Source: Algimonas ampicilliniresistens (GTDB lineage Bacteria > Pseudomonadota > Alphaproteobacteria > Caulobacterales > Maricaulaceae). From it: a stretch of 64,000 nucleotides of DNA. Where the stretch lies: positions 558,001 to 622,000 of the forward strand of contig NZ_BSNK01000001.1 of assembly GCF_030159955.1 (NCBI RefSeq), written 5' to 3'. The notes under the pieces were generated by a model. That model made no database searches. It saw only the letters and a list, made by a program, of their open reading frames with translations, and was not told where the DNA came from. Positions within the stretch are counted from its first letter, which is position 1; each line of letters starts with the position of its first letter. Below, piece after piece: positions 3,223 through 18,657 of the stretch. Made by a program: the position numbers and the translations under genes.

Positions 3223-5313
3223 CTAGTCGCCCGTCTCAGAATCTTCTTTCTTTTTCACATCATATTTCGCGAACCAGCCCATGATATTGTCTGTCTTGGC
3301 AATTAGTCGGCTGGGGCGGCTGGCAATATAATGGGGCGAGCCAGGTATGCGGATCAGGGCCGTGTCGACGCCGTTCATTTTCAAAGCCGTGTAGAACTGC
3401 TCCGCCTCCCAAGCCGGGGTGCGGAAGTCTGCCTCCCCAACCATTAAAAGCGTCGGCGTCGTGACATTTTCAACCAGCATGATCGGCGAGAAATCAAGAT
3501 AAGCACCTGGGTCTGTCCAGGGGTCTGCGCGGATCCAGTGTCGACGGACAAACTGACCAATATCAGCGGCCAGCGCCATGGTCATCCAATTGATAACGGG
3601 TTTGACGGATGCAGCCGCGGCAAACCGGTTCGTCTTGCCGACGGCCCATGCGGTCAAGATACCACCGCCAGAGCCCCCGGTTATAAATAACCGCTCGGAA
3701 TCGGCGTAGCGTCGCTCGACCAGATCATCGACCACATCCATGAGGTCTTGATAATCATCGCCCGGATAGGCCTTGTCGATCTGCTGAACGAAGTCGTCAC
3801 CATACCCTGTAGAGCCGCGTGGATTGACGTAGACAGTGACATAGCCTTCGGCTGCGAAGCGTTGAATCTCGCTCGAATAAAACGGACCATACATGGTCTG
3901 TGGTCCGCCGTGGATTTCCAAGATGAGTGGATAGCTGCCATCGGCTTTAAACCCGGGCGGCAGGGCGACCCACGCTTCAATCTCACGTCCATCGACGCTC
4001 GAAGTCACTTTGAACTCTTCGATAGGGGCCATGTCGAGATAGGGCAAAATGTCAGCATTCAGCTCTGTCAAAATACGCGGCTTGGCCGTGGCGCGCTGTA
4101 CAGCCACTTCGGCGGGTCTGTCGGTGAACCCGGCTGTGTATGCAAATGTCGGTGTCTCAGTCTTCGATGCGCTGAAACTACCGCTCGCATAGGGTCGTCC
4201 AATCGATGTGCCGCCAATGCCAGTCAATAGGGTGCGGACGCGATCTGTTCGTGTGTCGACAGATGCGACATCAATGACGCCGGCATTTTCGAACTGTGCG
4301 TAAAGTGTCTCGCTGTCGGAACCCCAAGCCAGTCTACCAAATGATCGATCTAGATCGGCAGCGAGGCGGCGAGAATTCCGGCCATCTACATCCATGATGT
4401 AAAGTTCGGATTGCTGGTAAGCCCGCAGCCGATCATCATAGCCGAGATAGGCAATCTTGCTGCCATCGGGAGAGACGGTGGGGTTGCCGTCAGGGCCATC
4501 GCGCTGTGTCAGCGGTGATATAGACAAATCATCCAAACGGACCGCGTAAATTTCGCTTTCGATCGGGTCCATTTCGCGGTCGTCAGCCATATTGCCGACC
4601 ACCAATAGTCGGTCATTCCCGAGCCAAGCGGGGCCAGAGAAATCAACATCGCCAGAGGTGATTTGACGCGGCGAGCCACCATCGGCTGAAATGGTGAAGG
4701 TATGAGTTGCGCCTTCGCGCAGATAACCGGCTCCGTCGAAGCGGAACGTCATATCGTCAAAAACCCGCACGGGTTCCGACCAAGTCGCGCCTTTGGGCGT
4801 CGCAATCGGTTTTGCAAAGGCAGGCGTTGAGCCGGGGACGAACATTGTGAAGGCGATGGTCTTGCCATCTGGTGACCAAGATGTGCTGCCGGGACCTTCG
4901 TAGAATTGGCCGAGTGACACGCTATTGCCGCTATCCATATAATGAATGCGTAGGTCAGGTCGATCGTCTGTAGACGTTGAATAGAGAAGCCGTGTGCCAT
5001 CTGGTGACCAACGCGGTGAGCCTTTAGAGGCTCCGCCAACGATCATAGGACGGTGAGCTCCGGTCGCGACATCTAGCGTCCAGAGATCACCTCGGTCCGT
5101 ATCCGTCTGTCGGTCCATGGAACGACGAACATAGACAATTGTTCGCCCGTCCGGTGAAATCTGTGGGTCACTGGCATATTCAATATCGAACACGCGTTCG
5201 GCGGTGAAGTGTTTGAATGCCTCGTCCGCGTCTTGCCCCAAAGCGGGGACCACGGACAGGCCGATTGCGCTGAGCGCAAGCAGGCTCACACCTGCTGTGA
5301 TGATGCGTTTCAT
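3223..5313 (-). CDS. Exported S9-family prolyl oligopeptidase-like serine peptidase
   Basis: A 696-residue peptidase with an N-terminal signal peptide (cleavage likely after VPALGQ, about residue 27). A seven-bladed TolB/WD-type beta-propeller follows (about residues 35-400, with repeated SPDG motifs), then a C-terminal alpha/beta-hydrolase domain. The catalytic triad is readable as Ser548 (GGSGGG), Asp629 (GEADFRTP) and His661 (GSPHYIAS). Family members cleave short peptides or acylated N termini; the export signal suggests periplasmic peptide scavenging. It converges on the sigma factor with a 33-nt gap and lies upstream of a CPA2 antiporter on the same strand with 66 nt between, so co-transcription is possible. 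Confidence 0.92.
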   Translation of the reverse strand: MKRIITAGVSLLALSAIGLSVVPALGQDADEAFKHFTAERVFDIEYASDPQISPDGRTIVYVRRSMDRQTDTDRGDLWTLDVATGAHRPMIVGGASKGSPRWSPDGTRLLYSTSTDDRPDLRIHYMDSGNSVSLGQFYEGPGSTSWSPDGKTIAFTMFVPGSTPAFAKPIATPKGATWSEPVRVFDDMTFRFDGAGYLREGATHTFTISADGGSPRQITSGDVDFSGPAWLGNDRLLVVGNMADDREMDPIESEIYAVRLDDLSISPLTQRDGPDGNPTVSPDGSKIAYLGYDDRLRAYQQSELYIMDVDGRNSRRLAADLDRSFGRLAWGSDSETLYAQFENAGVIDVASVDTRTDRVRTLLTGIGGTSIGRPYASGSFSASKTETPTFAYTAGFTDRPAEVAVQRATAKPRILTELNADILPYLDMAPIEEFKVTSSVDGREIEAWVALPPGFKADGSYPLILEIHGGPQTMYGPFYSSEIQRFAAEGYVTVYVNPRGSTGYGDDFVQQIDKAYPGDDYQDLMDVVDDLVERRYADSERLFITGGSGGGILTAWAVGKTNRFAAAASVKPVINWMTMALAADIGQFVRRHWIRADPWTDPGAYLDFSPIMLVENVTTPTLLMVGEADFRTPAWEAEQFYTALKMNGVDTALIRIPGSPHYIASRPSRLIAKTDNIMGWFAKYDVKKKEDSETGD

Positions 5314-13750: not shown

Positions 13751-14917
13751 CTAGGGCTGATCAAGGACGGCACCAATGTCTTGGCCAAGCTTGAACAGAG
13801 TGTTCCAATTGTCCGTCGTATCGGTCATCAGCCCAACCCGCACGAAAACGAGGTCGCGCGATGGCACGATCCAAATGATCTGACCCGCCAGCCCTCCGGC
13901 ATGAAACGCATCTAATGGGGCTGGGAAGATCAGCTCAGCATTGTCCGGTTGTTCGGGGGATGGCCAGAACCCACCCCCATAGCCATTATCATCACTGCTT
14001 TCAGGATTAGTACGGGCGAAGTCGACCCAGCCTACTGGCAGCAAACGCTCTGTGTTCCAGATACCGTCGCGCAAAAAGAGCAAGCCGAATTTCGCATAGT
14101 CACGGGCGCTCATATAGATGCTGGATCCGCCGAGCATCGTGCCCGCCGCGTCATACTCCTCCACTGCGTCCACTCCCAGAGGCTGGAATAAAACTTGATC
14201 GACCCAATCGCTCATAATGCTTGGGTTCGCTTTGCAGGTGCGCGGATTTTGCCCCGCTGTCAGGCACGTATTCGGGAGTTCAGCCTGCATAGCGCGCGCG
14301 ATGAGGTGGAAGGCCACTGTGGAATAATTCCAATGCTCTCCAGGCGTATGGGCGGCTGGAAAATGTTTACGGGCATGGGCCGCCACATCAAATTTTCCGG
14401 GACCAAAGATCATCTGTGTCGCGTCATTATCGAGCCCTGGGACGCCATATTCGGCATAGTCGAGACCATCGAGCATTTGTATCCAATGGCGCCAGCTAAT
14501 ATCGCCGCGAGGATCGCCATTCTCAAACGCAGCGGGCATCGGATCGTCGATTGATTCGATCAGGCCCGTCATGACCGCGCGACCGACAAGGGCTTGAGTC
14601 ACGGATTTGGCGATGGACCAACTGACGTGGCGGGTCTCAGGCGTTATCCCGTCGCGATACCGTTCATGAACAACGGCTCCTGCTTTGATGATGACAACGG
14701 CGCGTGTTTCGCCGAGGCCCTCTCCAATCTCAGTGGCGAAGACAGGATCTAGCAGAGCGTCGATCCCGGCTTGTTGTTCTGACGAGGGGGGTGAGCTTGA
14801 CCATTGCTGCGTTGGCCAGTCGACGTCTGCAGACTGGTTTGGGAGCGGCACAAGATCGCTGGCAAAAGCGGGCATCGCCAGCATTAGGAGACAACATATA
14901 AGACTCGACCTGATCAT
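13751..14917 (-). CDS. Beta-lactamase-fold serine hydrolase (S12 / class C-like esterase)
   Basis: A 388-residue exported hydrolase with a signal peptide (residues 1-19, ending MPAFAS). The catalytic SxxK motif is Ser101-Ile-Ala-Lys104 within SWSIAKS. A Tyr-Ser-Thr motif (HWNYSTVAF, about residue 191) and an HAGGLAG motif near the C terminus (about residue 342) complete an S12 layout similar to 6-aminohexanoate-dimer hydrolases and EstB-type esterases. Substrate is not predictable; it may act on peptides, esters or amides in the periplasm. It diverges from the gene at 14941 with only 23 nt between starts. It lies upstream of, and collinear with, a blaI-type operon, but no BlaI operator is visible near its own start. 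Confidence 0.82.
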   Translation of the reverse strand: MIRSSLICCLLMLAMPAFASDLVPLPNQSADVDWPTQQWSSSPPSSEQQAGIDALLDPVFATEIGEGLGETRAVVIIKAGAVVHERYRDGITPETRHVSWSIAKSVTQALVGRAVMTGLIESIDDPMPAAFENGDPRGDISWRHWIQMLDGLDYAEYGVPGLDNDATQMIFGPGKFDVAAHARKHFPAAHTPGEHWNYSTVAFHLIARAMQAELPNTCLTAGQNPRTCKANPSIMSDWVDQVLFQPLGVDAVEEYDAAGTMLGGSSIYMSARDYAKFGLLFLRDGIWNTERLLPVGWVDFARTNPESSDDNGYGGGFWPSPEQPDNAELIFPAPLDAFHAGGLAGQIIWIVPSRDLVFVRVGLMTDTTDNWNTLFKLGQDIGAVLDQP

Positions 14918-14940
14918 AGGGCAGTCTTTAGAAAGCCTAT

Positions 14941-15261
14941 ATGAGCGCCGTCAAAGTTATAATTACAATCCTCGCCTTACTGTTTGCTGCCGTAGGGGCC
15001 GCCTATCAGTTCTGGCTCAAGCCGCAGATTGAGTTTGCGCAGATTGGCACCGCTTATGGGGCCAAGAAAATGTGCTCTTGTCTGAACGTGTCGGAATTAT
15101 CGCTGGATCAATGCAAAGCTGACTTTACCGAAGACATATCAATGGTGACGTTCATCCCGGACAAGAATGCCGTCACAGTCGAAGTTCTCGGCGGGCGTAT
15201 TTCTAACCGCGCAATATATCGCCCCGGGCTGGGCTGTACGCTGGTTACAGAAAAGACCTAG
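14941..15261 (+). CDS. Membrane-anchored hypothetical protein with four cysteines
   Basis: A 106-residue protein with one N-terminal membrane segment (about residues 5-25) that would anchor or export a small extracytoplasmic domain. The domain has four cysteines (MCSCLNVS, DQCKADF, LGCTLV), so two disulfides are possible. I do not recognise the family. The start is the ATG at 14941, 23 nt from a divergent serine hydrolase start; the two may share a promoter region. The stop TAG lies in the tetramer CTAG, which also provides the stop of a minus-strand miniprotein gene. No transcription terminator separates them. Confidence 0.65.
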   Translation: MSAVKVIITILALLFAAVGAAYQFWLKPQIEFAQIGTAYGAKKMCSCLNVSELSLDQCKADFTEDISMVTFIPDKNAVTVEVLGGRISNRAIYRPGLGCTLVTEKT

Positions 15262-15392
15262 GTCAGCACCAAAATTGCAGCGATGACCGCCACTAAGACG
15301 GCGCCGATCACGATGCTTTTTAATCCAAAGCGAGAGCTGCTGCTCTGACCTTTGTGCATGTCGCCGGTTCTACTTTGCAAATGATTTGGCAT
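15258..15392 (-). CDS. 44-residue single-span membrane miniprotein (copy A)
   Basis: A short gene encoding 44 residues, with a polar Ser/Gly/His-containing N terminus (begins MPNHLQS) and one C-terminal membrane span of about 20 residues ending VAVIAAILVLT. GGAGG lies 5 nt before the ATG. A perfect EcfG-type promoter (GGAAC-N16-CGTT) ends 20 nt before the ATG. A second gene of identical length with the same organisation lies at 16772-16906. The products share M-x-N-H-(L/V)-(Q/E)-S at the start and VAVIAAIL at the end, so they are paralogues. The stop overlaps the stop of the convergent upstream gene by 4 nt. Function unknown; small membrane proteins are common members of the alphaproteobacterial general stress regulon. 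Confidence 0.72.
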   Translation of the reverse strand: MPNHLQSRTGDMHKGQSSSSRFGLKSIVIGAVLVAVIAAILVLT

Positions 15393-15412
15393 AATCTCCT
15401 CCAGATCATTCA

Positions 15413-15437
15413 AACGGTTGCGGGCGAGGGTGGTTCC
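15413..15437 (-). promoter_or_regulatory. EcfG-type general stress promoter of miniprotein A
   Basis: On the minus strand GGAAC (15437-15433) and CGTT (15416-15413) are separated by exactly 16 nt, the published consensus for EcfG (SigT in Caulobacter). The -10 lies 20 nt before the miniprotein ATG, giving a short leader that contains the ribosome-binding site. It is in the 81-nt gap divergent from the NhaP antiporter gene. Confidence 0.72.
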
Positions 15438-15473
15438 TGAAATGACACTCGTTTTCCGGCTCAGGACTTTGAC

Positions 15474-16775
15474 ATGATAAGTAGTTTGATCGAGTCGTTA
15501 CTCTCCAACCCGGTTGCGAGTGTTTATGCGCTCGTCGGATTCGCGCTATTCGGTTTGACTCTGCAGCCGGGTCTCGCTCGGCGCTATCACATCAATCTAC
15601 CCGCTGTTTATATTGCGCTAGGTGCCATCGCGACCTTGCTCGGATTTCCAAGTATTTCGCCGCTCGGCTCCGAATTGCAAGCCGGGATCATCACCCATGC
15701 CTCAGAAATGATCGTTATTGTTAGCCTTACGGCGGCGGGGCTTGCGATTGATTTGAAAGCAGGTTGGCGGCGTTGGAACGCGACGTGGCGATTGCTGGCG
15801 ATTACCATGCCTTTGACGATTATTGCCTTGATCATTTTGGGCCAATGGGCCGGACTCGGACTGGCGGGTGCGGTTTTGCTCGGAGCCGCGTTGGCACCAA
15901 CCGATCCTGTACTCGCCCGATCCGTACAAGTTGGCGGTCCAGGGGAGGATGAGGACCCCACGCGGGTTGCTCTTACATCTGAAGCCGGCCTGAATGATGG
16001 TCTCGCTTTTCCATTTGTCTGGGCTGCGATCGCACTGGCTGCCGGGACGTTCGATTGGACCCACGTTATTGCCTATGATGGTCTCTATCGGGTCGGAATG
16101 GGTATTGCGATTGGTTGGGGTGTCGGCTGGATTTTGACCCGCATTCTGTATTCAACATTGGGTGATGCCCGGAACGATCGGAGTAGTCCGCTAATCGTCG
16201 TTTTGGCCGCCACCTTTATCGCTTACGGTTTAGCGGAATTTGTTCATGCCTACGGATTTTTGTCCGTGTTCATCGCCGCAAGATCTGGACGAAAGCATAG
16301 TCCTGACACCAAGATGCGCAAAGCCGACGAGCCTGCCTATGCCAGCGCCGCCCATGAGTCTGCGGACCAGTTCGAAGGCATTTTAATGGTGGTTCTGCTC
16401 TTATGGTTTGGGTCATTTGTTGCGGCAGAGCTTTGGCATCAATGGCAATGGACGGATCTAGTCATTGCGCTTGCCCTGCTACTAATTGTGCGCCCCGTCG
16501 CAGGTTACATCGCCATGATCGGGTTAGGCTGTCCGAACAGTGAACGCATGAAAATGGCTTTTTTCGGTATTCGCGGAATGGGCACAATTTTCTATATCGC
16601 CTATGCTCAGACCCATGCGTCGTTCGATGATATCGATGCTGTATGGCGGATCGCCGGGCTTTGCATCCTGATCTCAGTGCTCATGCATGAAAGCTTGGCC
16701 GGGTGGATGTTTAATCGATCCCGGGTCGCGATTCCAACAGGCGCGCCCGAAACTGCGGATAATCATCCAGTTTAA
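15474..16775 (+). CDS. CPA1/NhaP-type Na+/H+ antiporter
   Basis: A 433-residue inner-membrane antiporter of the NhaP (CPA1) family that exchanges Na+ (or K+) for H+. About 12-13 transmembrane segments span the whole protein. The diagnostic EAGLNDGLAFP motif places the conserved Asn174-Asp175 pair in the ion-binding core, and the preceding ALAPTDPVLA motif (about residues 141-150) is also typical. Only a short polar tail follows the last helix. The ATG at 15474 has no strong ribosome-binding site. The gene is flanked on both sides by minus-strand copies of a 44-residue miniprotein gene, and its stop shares the TTAA tetramer with the right-hand copy. Confidence 0.92.
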   Translation: MISSLIESLLSNPVASVYALVGFALFGLTLQPGLARRYHINLPAVYIALGAIATLLGFPSISPLGSELQAGIITHASEMIVIVSLTAAGLAIDLKAGWRRWNATWRLLAITMPLTIIALIILGQWAGLGLAGAVLLGAALAPTDPVLARSVQVGGPGEDEDPTRVALTSEAGLNDGLAFPFVWAAIALAAGTFDWTHVIAYDGLYRVGMGIAIGWGVGWILTRILYSTLGDARNDRSSPLIVVLAATFIAYGLAEFVHAYGFLSVFIAARSGRKHSPDTKMRKADEPAYASAAHESADQFEGILMVVLLLWFGSFVAAELWHQWQWTDLVIALALLLIVRPVAGYIAMIGLGCPNSERMKMAFFGIRGMGTIFYIAYAQTHASFDDIDAVWRIAGLCILISVLMHESLAGWMFNRSRVAIPTGAPETADNHPV

Positions 16776-16906
16776 ATGACCATCAAGATGGCGGCGATTA
16801 CGGCGACCGTATTGCCCATGATCGCGAGACTGACATAGCCGAACGTCGAAATCTCACCGTTCCGGCTATCCGTGTTGTTTGATGTGCTTTCTACATGATT
16901 ATACAT
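16772..16906 (-). CDS. 44-residue single-span membrane miniprotein (copy B)
   Basis: A paralogue of the gene at 15258-15392, again exactly 135 nt. The product begins MYNHVES, has a polar Asn/Ser-rich stretch and ends in one membrane span with VAVIAAILMVI. GGAGG lies 5 nt before the ATG, the same spacing as copy A, and the leader aligns without gaps back to the EcfG-type promoter. The 3' end overlaps the stop codon of the antiporter gene by 4 nt (TTAA). Sequence between the shared ends has diverged, so the duplication is not recent. Function unknown; a role linked to the antiporter is only a neighbourhood inference. Confidence 0.72.
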   Translation of the reverse strand: MYNHVESTSNNTDSRNGEISTFGYVSLAIMGNTVAVIAAILMVI

Positions 16907-16926
16907 TGTGTCCTCCGAACCAACCT

Positions 16927-16951
16927 AACGGTTGCTCAAGAAGGTCGTTCC
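16927..16951 (-). promoter_or_regulatory. EcfG-type general stress promoter of miniprotein B
   Basis: GGAAC (16951-16947) and CGTT (16930-16927) on the minus strand, separated by exactly 16 nt and ending 20 nt before the ATG, as in copy A. The bases GCAAC immediately before CGTT and the ACC/TC positions inside the spacer are also shared with copy A, pointing to common descent of promoter and gene. Confidence 0.72.
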
Positions 16952-17033
16952 AATGGATGCCGGGATTGGCGCGTTTTCATGCCAACAGGGTTAACAATTT
17001 GCGTCCATCTAACTGCGATCAAACTTCTCTAGG

Positions 17034-17252
17034 TTAGCGGCGACCACCTGTCTCAAACCCGAATATATTCACAAGATGCACGAATAGCATGAAGCCGACA
17101 GCGATGGAGAATAGAGCGATGATCATCCACGGTATGCGATAGGGCCGGATATCTTGTTTCTCCGTGAAACGCTTCCGAATACCTATAAAAGCCAATCCAG
17201 CGCACACCACAATCGCTGAAAGTGTCAGGATGAGATCAGTATTTAGGTCCAT
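17034..17252 (-). CDS. Small two-span membrane protein
   Basis: A 72-residue protein with two predicted membrane helices (about residues 5-24 and 43-64) joined by a basic loop (RKRFTEKQDIRPYR), suggesting both ends face outside or the loop faces the cytoplasm. I do not recognise a family. The start overlaps the 3' end of the glycosyltransferase gene by 17 nt on the same strand, so it is probably co-translated with that enzyme and could be a small partner subunit. About 127 nt of non-coding DNA, with no further gene visible, separate its stop from miniprotein B's start. Confidence 0.6.
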   Translation of the reverse strand: MDLNTDLILTLSAIVVCAGLAFIGIRKRFTEKQDIRPYRIPWMIIALFSIAVGFMLFVHLVNIFGFETGGRR

Positions 17253-18657
17253 TGATCAAGCACGCATCTTTGTCCGGTGGGTCAGGCGGCGCGCCCGTAA
17301 CACCATGTTCCGTCTTGTGCCAGTGAAAGGGTCGGGTCTGCAGTTCGGCTAGGGCCTGCATCAGTGGCGCGAATAGCAGCATCCAATAGACTGGCATGAG
17401 CGGGACATGGCGCAGAAGATGGGGCTGACCTGCGCGGATGGCGCCTAGAGCGCCAACCGCCATGCCGCAGATTAGGCTGAAGCCCAAAGTCCAGAGATAG
17501 ATGGCAGGAATGACTGCATCCGTAATGCCTAAAAGCTTTGCAGCGCTGACTAAGCCAAGCAAAACCATGATGGGCGCGAAGAACAAGACGGAGAGGAGCG
17601 AGAGTCCGAGCGTGAGTTGCAACATGACAACCCTTCGCCAACCGCCCGATAAAGGCGCATTCATATGGACCATCCAGGTCTGAATATAGCCTTTGAGCCA
17701 TCGAGAGCGCTGCCGGTGCCAAGGACGGATGCGAGAGACGGCTTCTTCTTGAGTGGGCGCGCTGATCCATCCGATGCCGCCGCCATAGGCAGCCAGACGA
17801 AAGGCCAGATCGGCATCTTCCGTCACATTATAAGCGTCCCAACCGCCAACCGCATCAAGCGCCTCTCGGCGCATATGGTTGGACGTTCCGCCGAGCGGGA
17901 AAGGCAAACCCGTTTTGTCGAAAAACGGCAATAGCACTTGGAACAAACCCGCATATTCCAGTCCGAATTGTGCCGCCAACAAGCTATCTTGCGTGTTGAA
18001 ATAATGCAGCGGTGCTTGCAGAGCCATCCATTGGGGGTGAGCGGCGAATGCGCTCGCAGCTTGCCGCAACTGCTGCGGGTGGGGGCGGTCTTCTGCATCG
18101 AAAATAGTGACAAGCTCGCCATGGGACCGGGCTAAGGCATAGTTGAGCGCACGCGGCTTCGTTTGTGGCTCTCCATCGGGAATCGTCGGCGGGACGACAA
18201 GGACGCGAAAGGGCGGTTGCGCGAGAGCCTCCGCAGCGGCGACCGTTCCTAGATCACCACTCTCACAGGCAAAGATAATATCGAGTTTTTCTGTCGGATA
18301 ATCGAGGCTGGACAGGGTGGAGATCAATCCCGACACCATATGTGCCTCGTGAAATAATGGCACGATCACGGTGTAAGTGGGTAGCTGCGCATGAGGCAGA
18401 AGCGTTGACGGTTGGCGCTGTGGCGTGACGCACGCTAGTAGTCGAAGAACAGCCAAGGCGACGCTGATCCAAGCCACGATCATGGTCATAACTTGTATAA
18501 GCGACATGAAGTCGAAGTCTGTCGACACCTCCACACCGATCAATAGAGCGATGATTGAGGCGACTCCACTGCTTGCGAGTATAGAGGCTGGGCGTAACCG
18601 ATCGGCGCGGCCGAGCGACAAATTTCTAACGCGACCGCGATCCGGTGATGTAGTCAT
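17236..18657 (-). CDS. Membrane glycosyltransferase, GT2 family (processive type)
   Basis: A 473-residue polysaccharide or glycolipid glycosyltransferase. Two N-terminal membrane segments (about residues 30-75) precede a cytoplasmic GT-A domain (about 95-330) and further helices at the C terminus. The active-site series is intact: TVIVPLFHEA, the DAEDRP motif (D,D), TEDADL and the QRSRW (QxxRW) motif of processive synthases such as cellulose or GlcNAc-polymer enzymes. The ATG at 18657 is preferred over a TTG at 18702 because GGGGG lies 6 nt upstream. Substrate unknown. It overlaps a 72-residue membrane protein gene downstream; no bcsB- or bcsZ-like gene is near. Confidence 0.88.
   Translation of the reverse strand: MTTSPDRGRVRNLSLGRADRLRPASILASSGVASIIALLIGVEVSTDFDFMSLIQVMTMIVAWISVALAVLRLLACVTPQRQPSTLLPHAQLPTYTVIVPLFHEAHMVSGLISTLSSLDYPTEKLDIIFACESGDLGTVAAAEALAQPPFRVLVVPPTIPDGEPQTKPRALNYALARSHGELVTIFDAEDRPHPQQLRQAASAFAAHPQWMALQAPLHYFNTQDSLLAAQFGLEYAGLFQVLLPFFDKTGLPFPLGGTSNHMRREALDAVGGWDAYNVTEDADLAFRLAAYGGGIGWISAPTQEEAVSRIRPWHRQRSRWLKGYIQTWMVHMNAPLSGGWRRVVMLQLTLGLSLLSVLFFAPIMVLLGLVSAAKLLGITDAVIPAIYLWTLGFSLICGMAVGALGAIRAGQPHLLRHVPLMPVYWMLLFAPLMQALAELQTRPFHWHKTEHGVTGAPPDPPDKDACLINGPKY

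Follow-up and report, generated by a model that had tools for sequence, protein, structure and literature searches.

Within a 64,000-nucleotide stretch of the Algimonas ampicilliniresistens genome (contig NZ_BSNK01000001.1, positions 558,001 to 622,000; the window), a CPA1/NhaP-NHE-type cation/proton antiporter gene (15474..16775, plus strand) lies between two minus-strand genes for 44-residue proteins, here called mini-proteins. Copy 1 (15258..15392) occupies the ancestral position, divergent from the antiporter, and copy 2 (16772..16906) is a diverged duplicate convergent with it. A one-to-one linkage between mini-protein and antiporter is well supported, with the mini-gene directly upstream of the antiporter and divergent from it in 18/18 genomes. 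The comparisons moderately favor an accessory role for the mini-protein, a single-span protein that stress would induce and that would modulate the adjacent antiporter.

Linkage of the mini-protein to one antiporter

A first search with copy 2 among 60 relatives gave weak matches, and inspection by eye showed that two of these shared the start motif and carried an EcfG box. Iterated searches then yielded 19 proteins, comprising both window copies and one protein from each of 17 other genomes. The 19-row profile matches 22 of the 138 genomes of the host family at E <= 0.01. Members are full-length in 18 genomes (E <= 3e-17 for the divergent copy), and four genomes hold partial matches alone (G093, G110, G142 and G151). 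Antiporter matches at E <= 1e-40 occur in 19 of the 138 genomes, namely the 18 mini-bearing ones and G005. The original prediction, which had proposed a recurring antiporter neighborhood as a check, thus agrees with what is seen in every mini-bearing genome.

Trees of the mini-protein and of the antiporter contain the same three clades, A1, A2 and B, with supports of 0.81, 0.90 and 0.96 for the mini-protein and 0.62 (A1), 0.98 (A2) and 1.00 (B) for the antiporter. By their flanking genes the loci group into about seven contexts (A1, six genomes; G016; G063; G073; G035 with G128; G130; clade B, six genomes), and a few flank clusters occur in more than one of them (F19 in G006, G007 and G010; F23 in G063 and G017). 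It is therefore the mini-antiporter pair itself that persists. Among the best 80 antiporter-type loci of a genome scan, 7 carry the family by profile and 73 do not; the seven belong to genomes G012, G014, G016, G017, G018, G035 and G073 and are not independent.

The original prediction envisaged a search across Caulobacterales/Maricaulales, and the family proved much narrower, with full-length members in the host family only. Beyond it, samples of 399 order genomes taken from a larger set (profile A2, family members included) and 385 class genomes (profile A4) gave partial matches only, the weak ones being read in part rather than each one. One genome, G014, also encodes a 47-residue one-span protein (G014:C2:473859-473978; L099, ~4860-4979, minus strand) that starts MTNNEKTRIDE, matches the profile weakly (E 7e-4) and lies ~2.5 kb from nepR; it is possibly a distant relative in another setting. 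In clade B (L093-L098), the pair adjoins an operon of an EF-hand protein, an extracytoplasmic function (ECF) sigma factor (both assigned by Pfam) and a small one-span protein without Pfam match, which may act as the cognate anti-sigma factor. A motif shared between the clade B mini-gene promoter and the promoters of this operon was looked for by eye and not seen.

A new family of single-span membrane proteins

Members of the family have 41-44 residues; a polar tail of ~22 residues leads into a single hydrophobic span, which ends at the C-terminus or close to it. The consensus is M-P/V-D/N-H/N-x-Q/A-x-R-T at the start, a polar middle and one C-terminal span; R8 is present in 18/19 members, the exception being copy 2. 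The best 17-residue Kyte-Doolittle mean is 2.4-3.55 in 19/19, and all have a single span and fewer than 60 residues. Judged by these properties, the two window copies are tiny single-span membrane proteins. Each gene measures 135 nt from ATG through stop, with a Shine-Dalgarno GGAGG, read from the sequence, 5 nt before the ATG (15398..15402 for copy 1 and 16912..16916 for copy 2, both minus strand), as originally described.

Purifying selection acts on the mini-gene frame in each of the three clades. Mean proportions of synonymous and replacement differences (pS/pN) are 0.73/0.20 in clade B, 0.66/0.30 in A1 and 0.79/0.38 in A2, and pairwise replacement/synonymous ratios are 0.09-0.59 where synonymous divergence (dS) is unsaturated. 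With pN far below pS, the low dN/dS expected of a conserved frame is found, and together with the recurring neighborhood it supports the original prediction of a new family of small membrane proteins tied to an NhaP-type antiporter.

Database scans place the family outside known ones. Against Pfam, 1/19 members has a generic span match, to N_methyl at 5e-4; P0001 has no match at E <= 1, and P0002 matches only TMEM171 at 0.028, below the cut-off. Three members scanned against NCBIfam gave nothing above cut-off, four scanned against PHROGs gave nothing at E <= 0.1, and among solved structures there was no credible match, the single hit being a pilin-type protein at E 0.072. On this sequence evidence the mini-proteins are a new family, absent from Pfam, NCBIfam and PHROGs as scanned.

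EcfG-type promoters and the general stress response

Both window copies are preceded by an EcfG-type promoter, GGAAC-N16-CGTT, which ends 20 nt before the ATG (15413..15437 for copy 1 and 16927..16951 for copy 2, minus strand) and scores 9/9 motif letters with a spacer of 16. The published EcfG consensus is GGAAC-N16-CGTT in Sphingopyxis granuli TFA, with a flexible -10 element that includes CATT, GGTT and TGTT among its forms (PMC7083833), and GGAAC-N17-20-GTT in Sphingomonas melonis Fr1 (PMC6599016). When the 80 nt upstream of each copy were scored for the 9 motif letters, 10 of the 13 A-clade copies reached 9/9 and three reached 8 (AGTT in G130; CATT in G128 and G035). Among 229 other genes of the same loci, three reached 9 letters and nine reached 8 (12/229). 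A general stress response promoter ahead of the window mini-genes is well supported at the level of sequence motifs.

The conserved untranslated leader noted originally is mainly this promoter. The ungapped similarity of the two 60-nt leaders is real (32 shared positions, equaled by 0/20,000 shuffles), but once the GGAAC, CGTT and GGAGG boxes are removed just 18/46 positions are shared, a value that 638/20,000 shuffles attain. The similarity is therefore mostly promoter and ribosome-binding site.

The window genome possesses the PhyR-NepR-EcfG core, with phyR at L245 489-1259 on the minus strand and the EcfG-type sigma factor gene at L245 1623-2243 on the plus strand, alongside nepR. NepR was detected in 18/18 mini-bearing genomes and in 1/5 of the mini-less congeners searched. 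Among the 30 inspected of the 54 exact motif sites in the window genome, several lie 33-60 nt upstream of frames resembling familiar stress genes, which by eye we take to encode a small lipoprotein, superoxide-dismutase-like and hemerythrin-like proteins, a 54-residue DUF1328-like membrane protein and a YciF-like protein. The short spacer between the divergent phyR and nepR-ecfG (L245 1259-1440) holds EcfG-like boxes that overlap and differ from the consensus by one letter each, the nepR-side box being read by eye. In G006, G007, G012, G015, G018 and G063 (L014-L019), the spacer between mini-gene and antiporter contains a near-palindromic GGAAC...GTTCC, which suggests a two-sided stress promoter for both genes; the box in the window spacer is not two-sided.

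Two readings that deny the mini-protein a tie to the antiporter can be weighed at this point. The genes are short and match nothing in Pfam, NCBIfam or PHROGs, as chance open frames with similar leaders would, but family profile matches, selection, linkage, the shuffle tests and the promoter control speak against such an origin, to which we assign a negligible probability. For copy 1 we reject it on the full-length family matches and purifying selection. The size, the single strongly hydrophobic span and the stress promoter would also suit a hydrophobic stress peptide of the type I toxin kind that depolarizes the membrane and is co-inherited with a chance neighbor. Retention of the pair across ~7 gene contexts, the conserved polar tail with its nearly constant R8 and the lack of any Rfam antitoxin RNA in the window, where only one tRNA was detected, make a toxin highly improbable.

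The antiporter

The 433-residue antiporter matches Pfam PF00999 (Na_H_Exchanger) at E 3e-27 (95.9 bits against a cut-off of 26.2), and NCBIfam K+/H+ models score far under their cut-off (66 of 355 bits). It is 15-18% identical to PaNhaP and MjNhaP1 (PDB 4cz8-4czb) over aligned residues. Asn174 and Asp175 (N174-D175), presumably the CPA1 ND pair, are invariant across our antiporter alignment (A3). The predicted model spans the whole PaNhaP/NHE fold with a mean predicted local distance difference test (pLDDT) score of 74.4, falling below 50 at residues ~145-169, and indicates that the antiporter is a complete NHE/NhaP-fold protein. We do not favor the idea that the mini-protein replaces a missing antiporter helix, since the model already covers the PaNhaP fold.

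The closest outgroup without mini-gene consists of Rhodobacteraceae antiporters from Jannaschia sp. (L125) and L130, 53% and 47% identical to that of the window. Nine columns are fixed in the 18 antiporters and altered in the mini-less Jannaschia and Rhodobacteraceae sequences (N12, A15, I47, G154, W183, N234, W321, W324 and K360), and these are possible contact-site candidates resting on two negatives.

Duplication and loss of the mini-gene

The usual state of the family is a single copy divergent from the antiporter; a second copy beyond the antiporter was found in 0/17 other genomes and thus in the window genome only. A 72-residue membrane-type gene outside the mini-protein family (cluster F13; 17034..17252, minus strand) marks the insertion point. 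In five A1 relatives the antiporter stop abuts F13 (0 bp in G015 and G018, 15 bp in G006; G007 and G012 as read from frames), and in the window 258 bp holding copy 2 and its promoter lie between the two. Copy 2 is therefore a cassette duplicate.

The two window proteins share 17/44 residues without gaps, a value reached by 0/20,000 shuffles that preserve the composition of tail and span separately. Copy 1 matches the family profile, of which it is itself a member, at E 1.9e-19. The match of copy 2 is weak (10.2 bits, E 0.068, rank 2 of 1,876 window segments, with its score matched by 64/5,000 shuffles), so that its membership rests on its likeness to copy 1, its promoter and its place. In the tree it is nested in A1 with a support of 0.70; P2, Q6 and R8 are lost, and the tail carries a net negative charge. 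Between the copies synonymous sites are saturated, with 19, 16 and 29 differences at the three codon positions. The original prediction of a selected, duplicated family flanking the antiporter thus holds for selection on the family, but one copy is the usual state and selection on copy 2 is not demonstrable. As a recent cassette duplicate lacking R8, copy 2 may be specializing or decaying.

Both mini-gene stops overlap the stop of a convergent plus-strand gene by 4 nt (15257-15262, CTAG; 16771-16776, TTAA), as do some in relatives. For copy 1 the partner is a 106-residue neighbor gene (14941..15261, plus strand; cluster F20) outside the system, present among the 18 genomes only in G015 besides the window genome. 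Copy 2 points into the antiporter 3' end, and no terminator-like site beyond chance lies between them (14900-17300: 3 found, 2.6 expected), an arrangement in which EcfG-driven transcription, divergent or antisense, could tune the antiporter mRNA and the transcript, not the peptide, would matter. The frame is, however, under purifying selection in all three clades, the conserved copy 1 faces away from the antiporter and copy 2 is confined to one genome, and we regard a role of the transcript as improbable.

The opposite event is seen in G005. Its antiporter occupies the same locus as that of G014 and is 91.5% identical to it, but 99 bp, in which the profile finds no remnant, take the place of the mini-gene and a 53-bp spacer. 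Neither NepR nor PhyR was detected in this genome, which is just 78% complete.

Proposed role of the mini-protein

If the mini-protein is an accessory protein of the antiporter, stress would switch on EcfG, and the mini-gene would be transcribed from its EcfG promoter in two of the three clades, the window genome included. The span would then pack against the antiporter within the membrane while the conserved tail, M-P/V-D/N-H/N-x-Q/A-x-R, would contact it on the cytoplasmic side, and the activity, pH set-point or stability of the antiporter would change. The positive charges preceding the span suggest that the tail is cytoplasmic. Stress expression, physical binding to the antiporter and the sign of the effect are what we infer from these sequences.

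Several points weigh against this role. The case for binding is one of genetic linkage, and divergent neighbors may be linked through a shared regulatory region rather than through their proteins. G005 and Jannaschia sp. L125, with its 53%-identical antiporter, retain the antiporter without the mini-gene, and the mini-protein is therefore not an obligate subunit. All six clade B copies (6/19) reach at most 7/9 letters and have no EcfG box despite NepR in those genomes, where control of the mini-gene may have been swapped. No clear Shine-Dalgarno site precedes the copies of G007 and G012. The exact promoter motif shows no genome-wide enrichment (54 sites at spacers 16-17 against 83 in the reversed control), so that single motif sites prove little; within the window, 3 GGAAC/CGTT sites (spacers 15-18) compare with 2.1 expected by chance.

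Mini-protein and antiporter might also serve the same stress (pH, salt or membrane energization) without contact, the mini-protein acting on the bilayer or another target and the genes being kept together by a shared, sometimes two-sided, EcfG control region. On its antiporter strand the spacer scores 8-9/9 EcfG letters in G130 and six A-clade genomes, with GGAAC...GTTCC in six of these, and the antiporter retained in G005 fits equally. However, no good motif lies on the antiporter strand in the window, G016, G035, G073 or G128, and members were found solely beside this antiporter, whereas a stress protein acting on its own should turn up in other places as well. The two proteins also diverge in step: in the 17 genomes that encode mini-protein, antiporter and EcfG, the correlation of mini-protein with antiporter distances is 0.83, that of antiporter with EcfG distances 0.16; this counts as supporting evidence only, because the EcfG tree, our species proxy, is poorly resolved. 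We consider a shared stress without contact rather unlikely.

Small membrane proteins that regulate transporters are known, KdpF being one, and CHP1 is a calcium-binding protein, soluble and located on the cytosolic tail of its exchanger. PDB entry titles name CHP1 as an accessory subunit of mammalian NHE1/NHE3, exchangers with the same fold as the window antiporter; unlike CHP1, the mini-protein spans the membrane, and the window antiporter has almost no C-terminal domain. AcrZ (49 residues, binding the resistance-nodulation-division (RND) pump AcrB), MgtS, MntS, MgtR/MgtU and WatS1 offer a parallel, being smaller than ~55 residues, with one span, tied to one transporter and in several cases stress-induced (PMC10710835). 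In contrast to the mini-protein, none of those named in the sections of that source used here partners a CPA1 Na+(K+)/H+ antiporter or is described as EcfG-controlled; the comparison is by description, not sequence by sequence. The EcfG regulons of Sphingopyxis and Sphingomonas, as far as the parts of the two reports used here cover them, include several hypothetical and small proteins, and, unlike the setting of the mini-gene, the word "antiporter" is absent from the main text of both (PMC7083833, PMC6599016). The open-access literature searched yielded no paper joining EcfG, an antiporter and a small protein, nor one naming a partner of this kind for a CPA1 antiporter.

We tentatively raise the possibility, which falls a little short of being probable, that the mini-protein is the first case of a small membrane-spanning accessory subunit for a bacterial CPA1 (NhaP/NHE/SLC9-fold) exchanger, made only under the general stress response and coupling EcfG to cytoplasmic pH and cation homeostasis; the second, diverged cassette would make the system of A. 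ampicilliniresistens a two-regulator antiporter. Small membrane proteins are readily missed by annotation and their partners are mostly unknown, and comparative genomics here provides one antiporter as a partner and the EcfG promoter as a trigger. G005 serves as a natural deletion of the mini-gene, and the family, with its steady motif in 18 genomes, provides a tagging model for culturable relatives of Algimonas, Litorimonas and Robiginitomaculum; the pair offers a testable case of a stress sigma factor that could influence ion exchange by means of a peptide.
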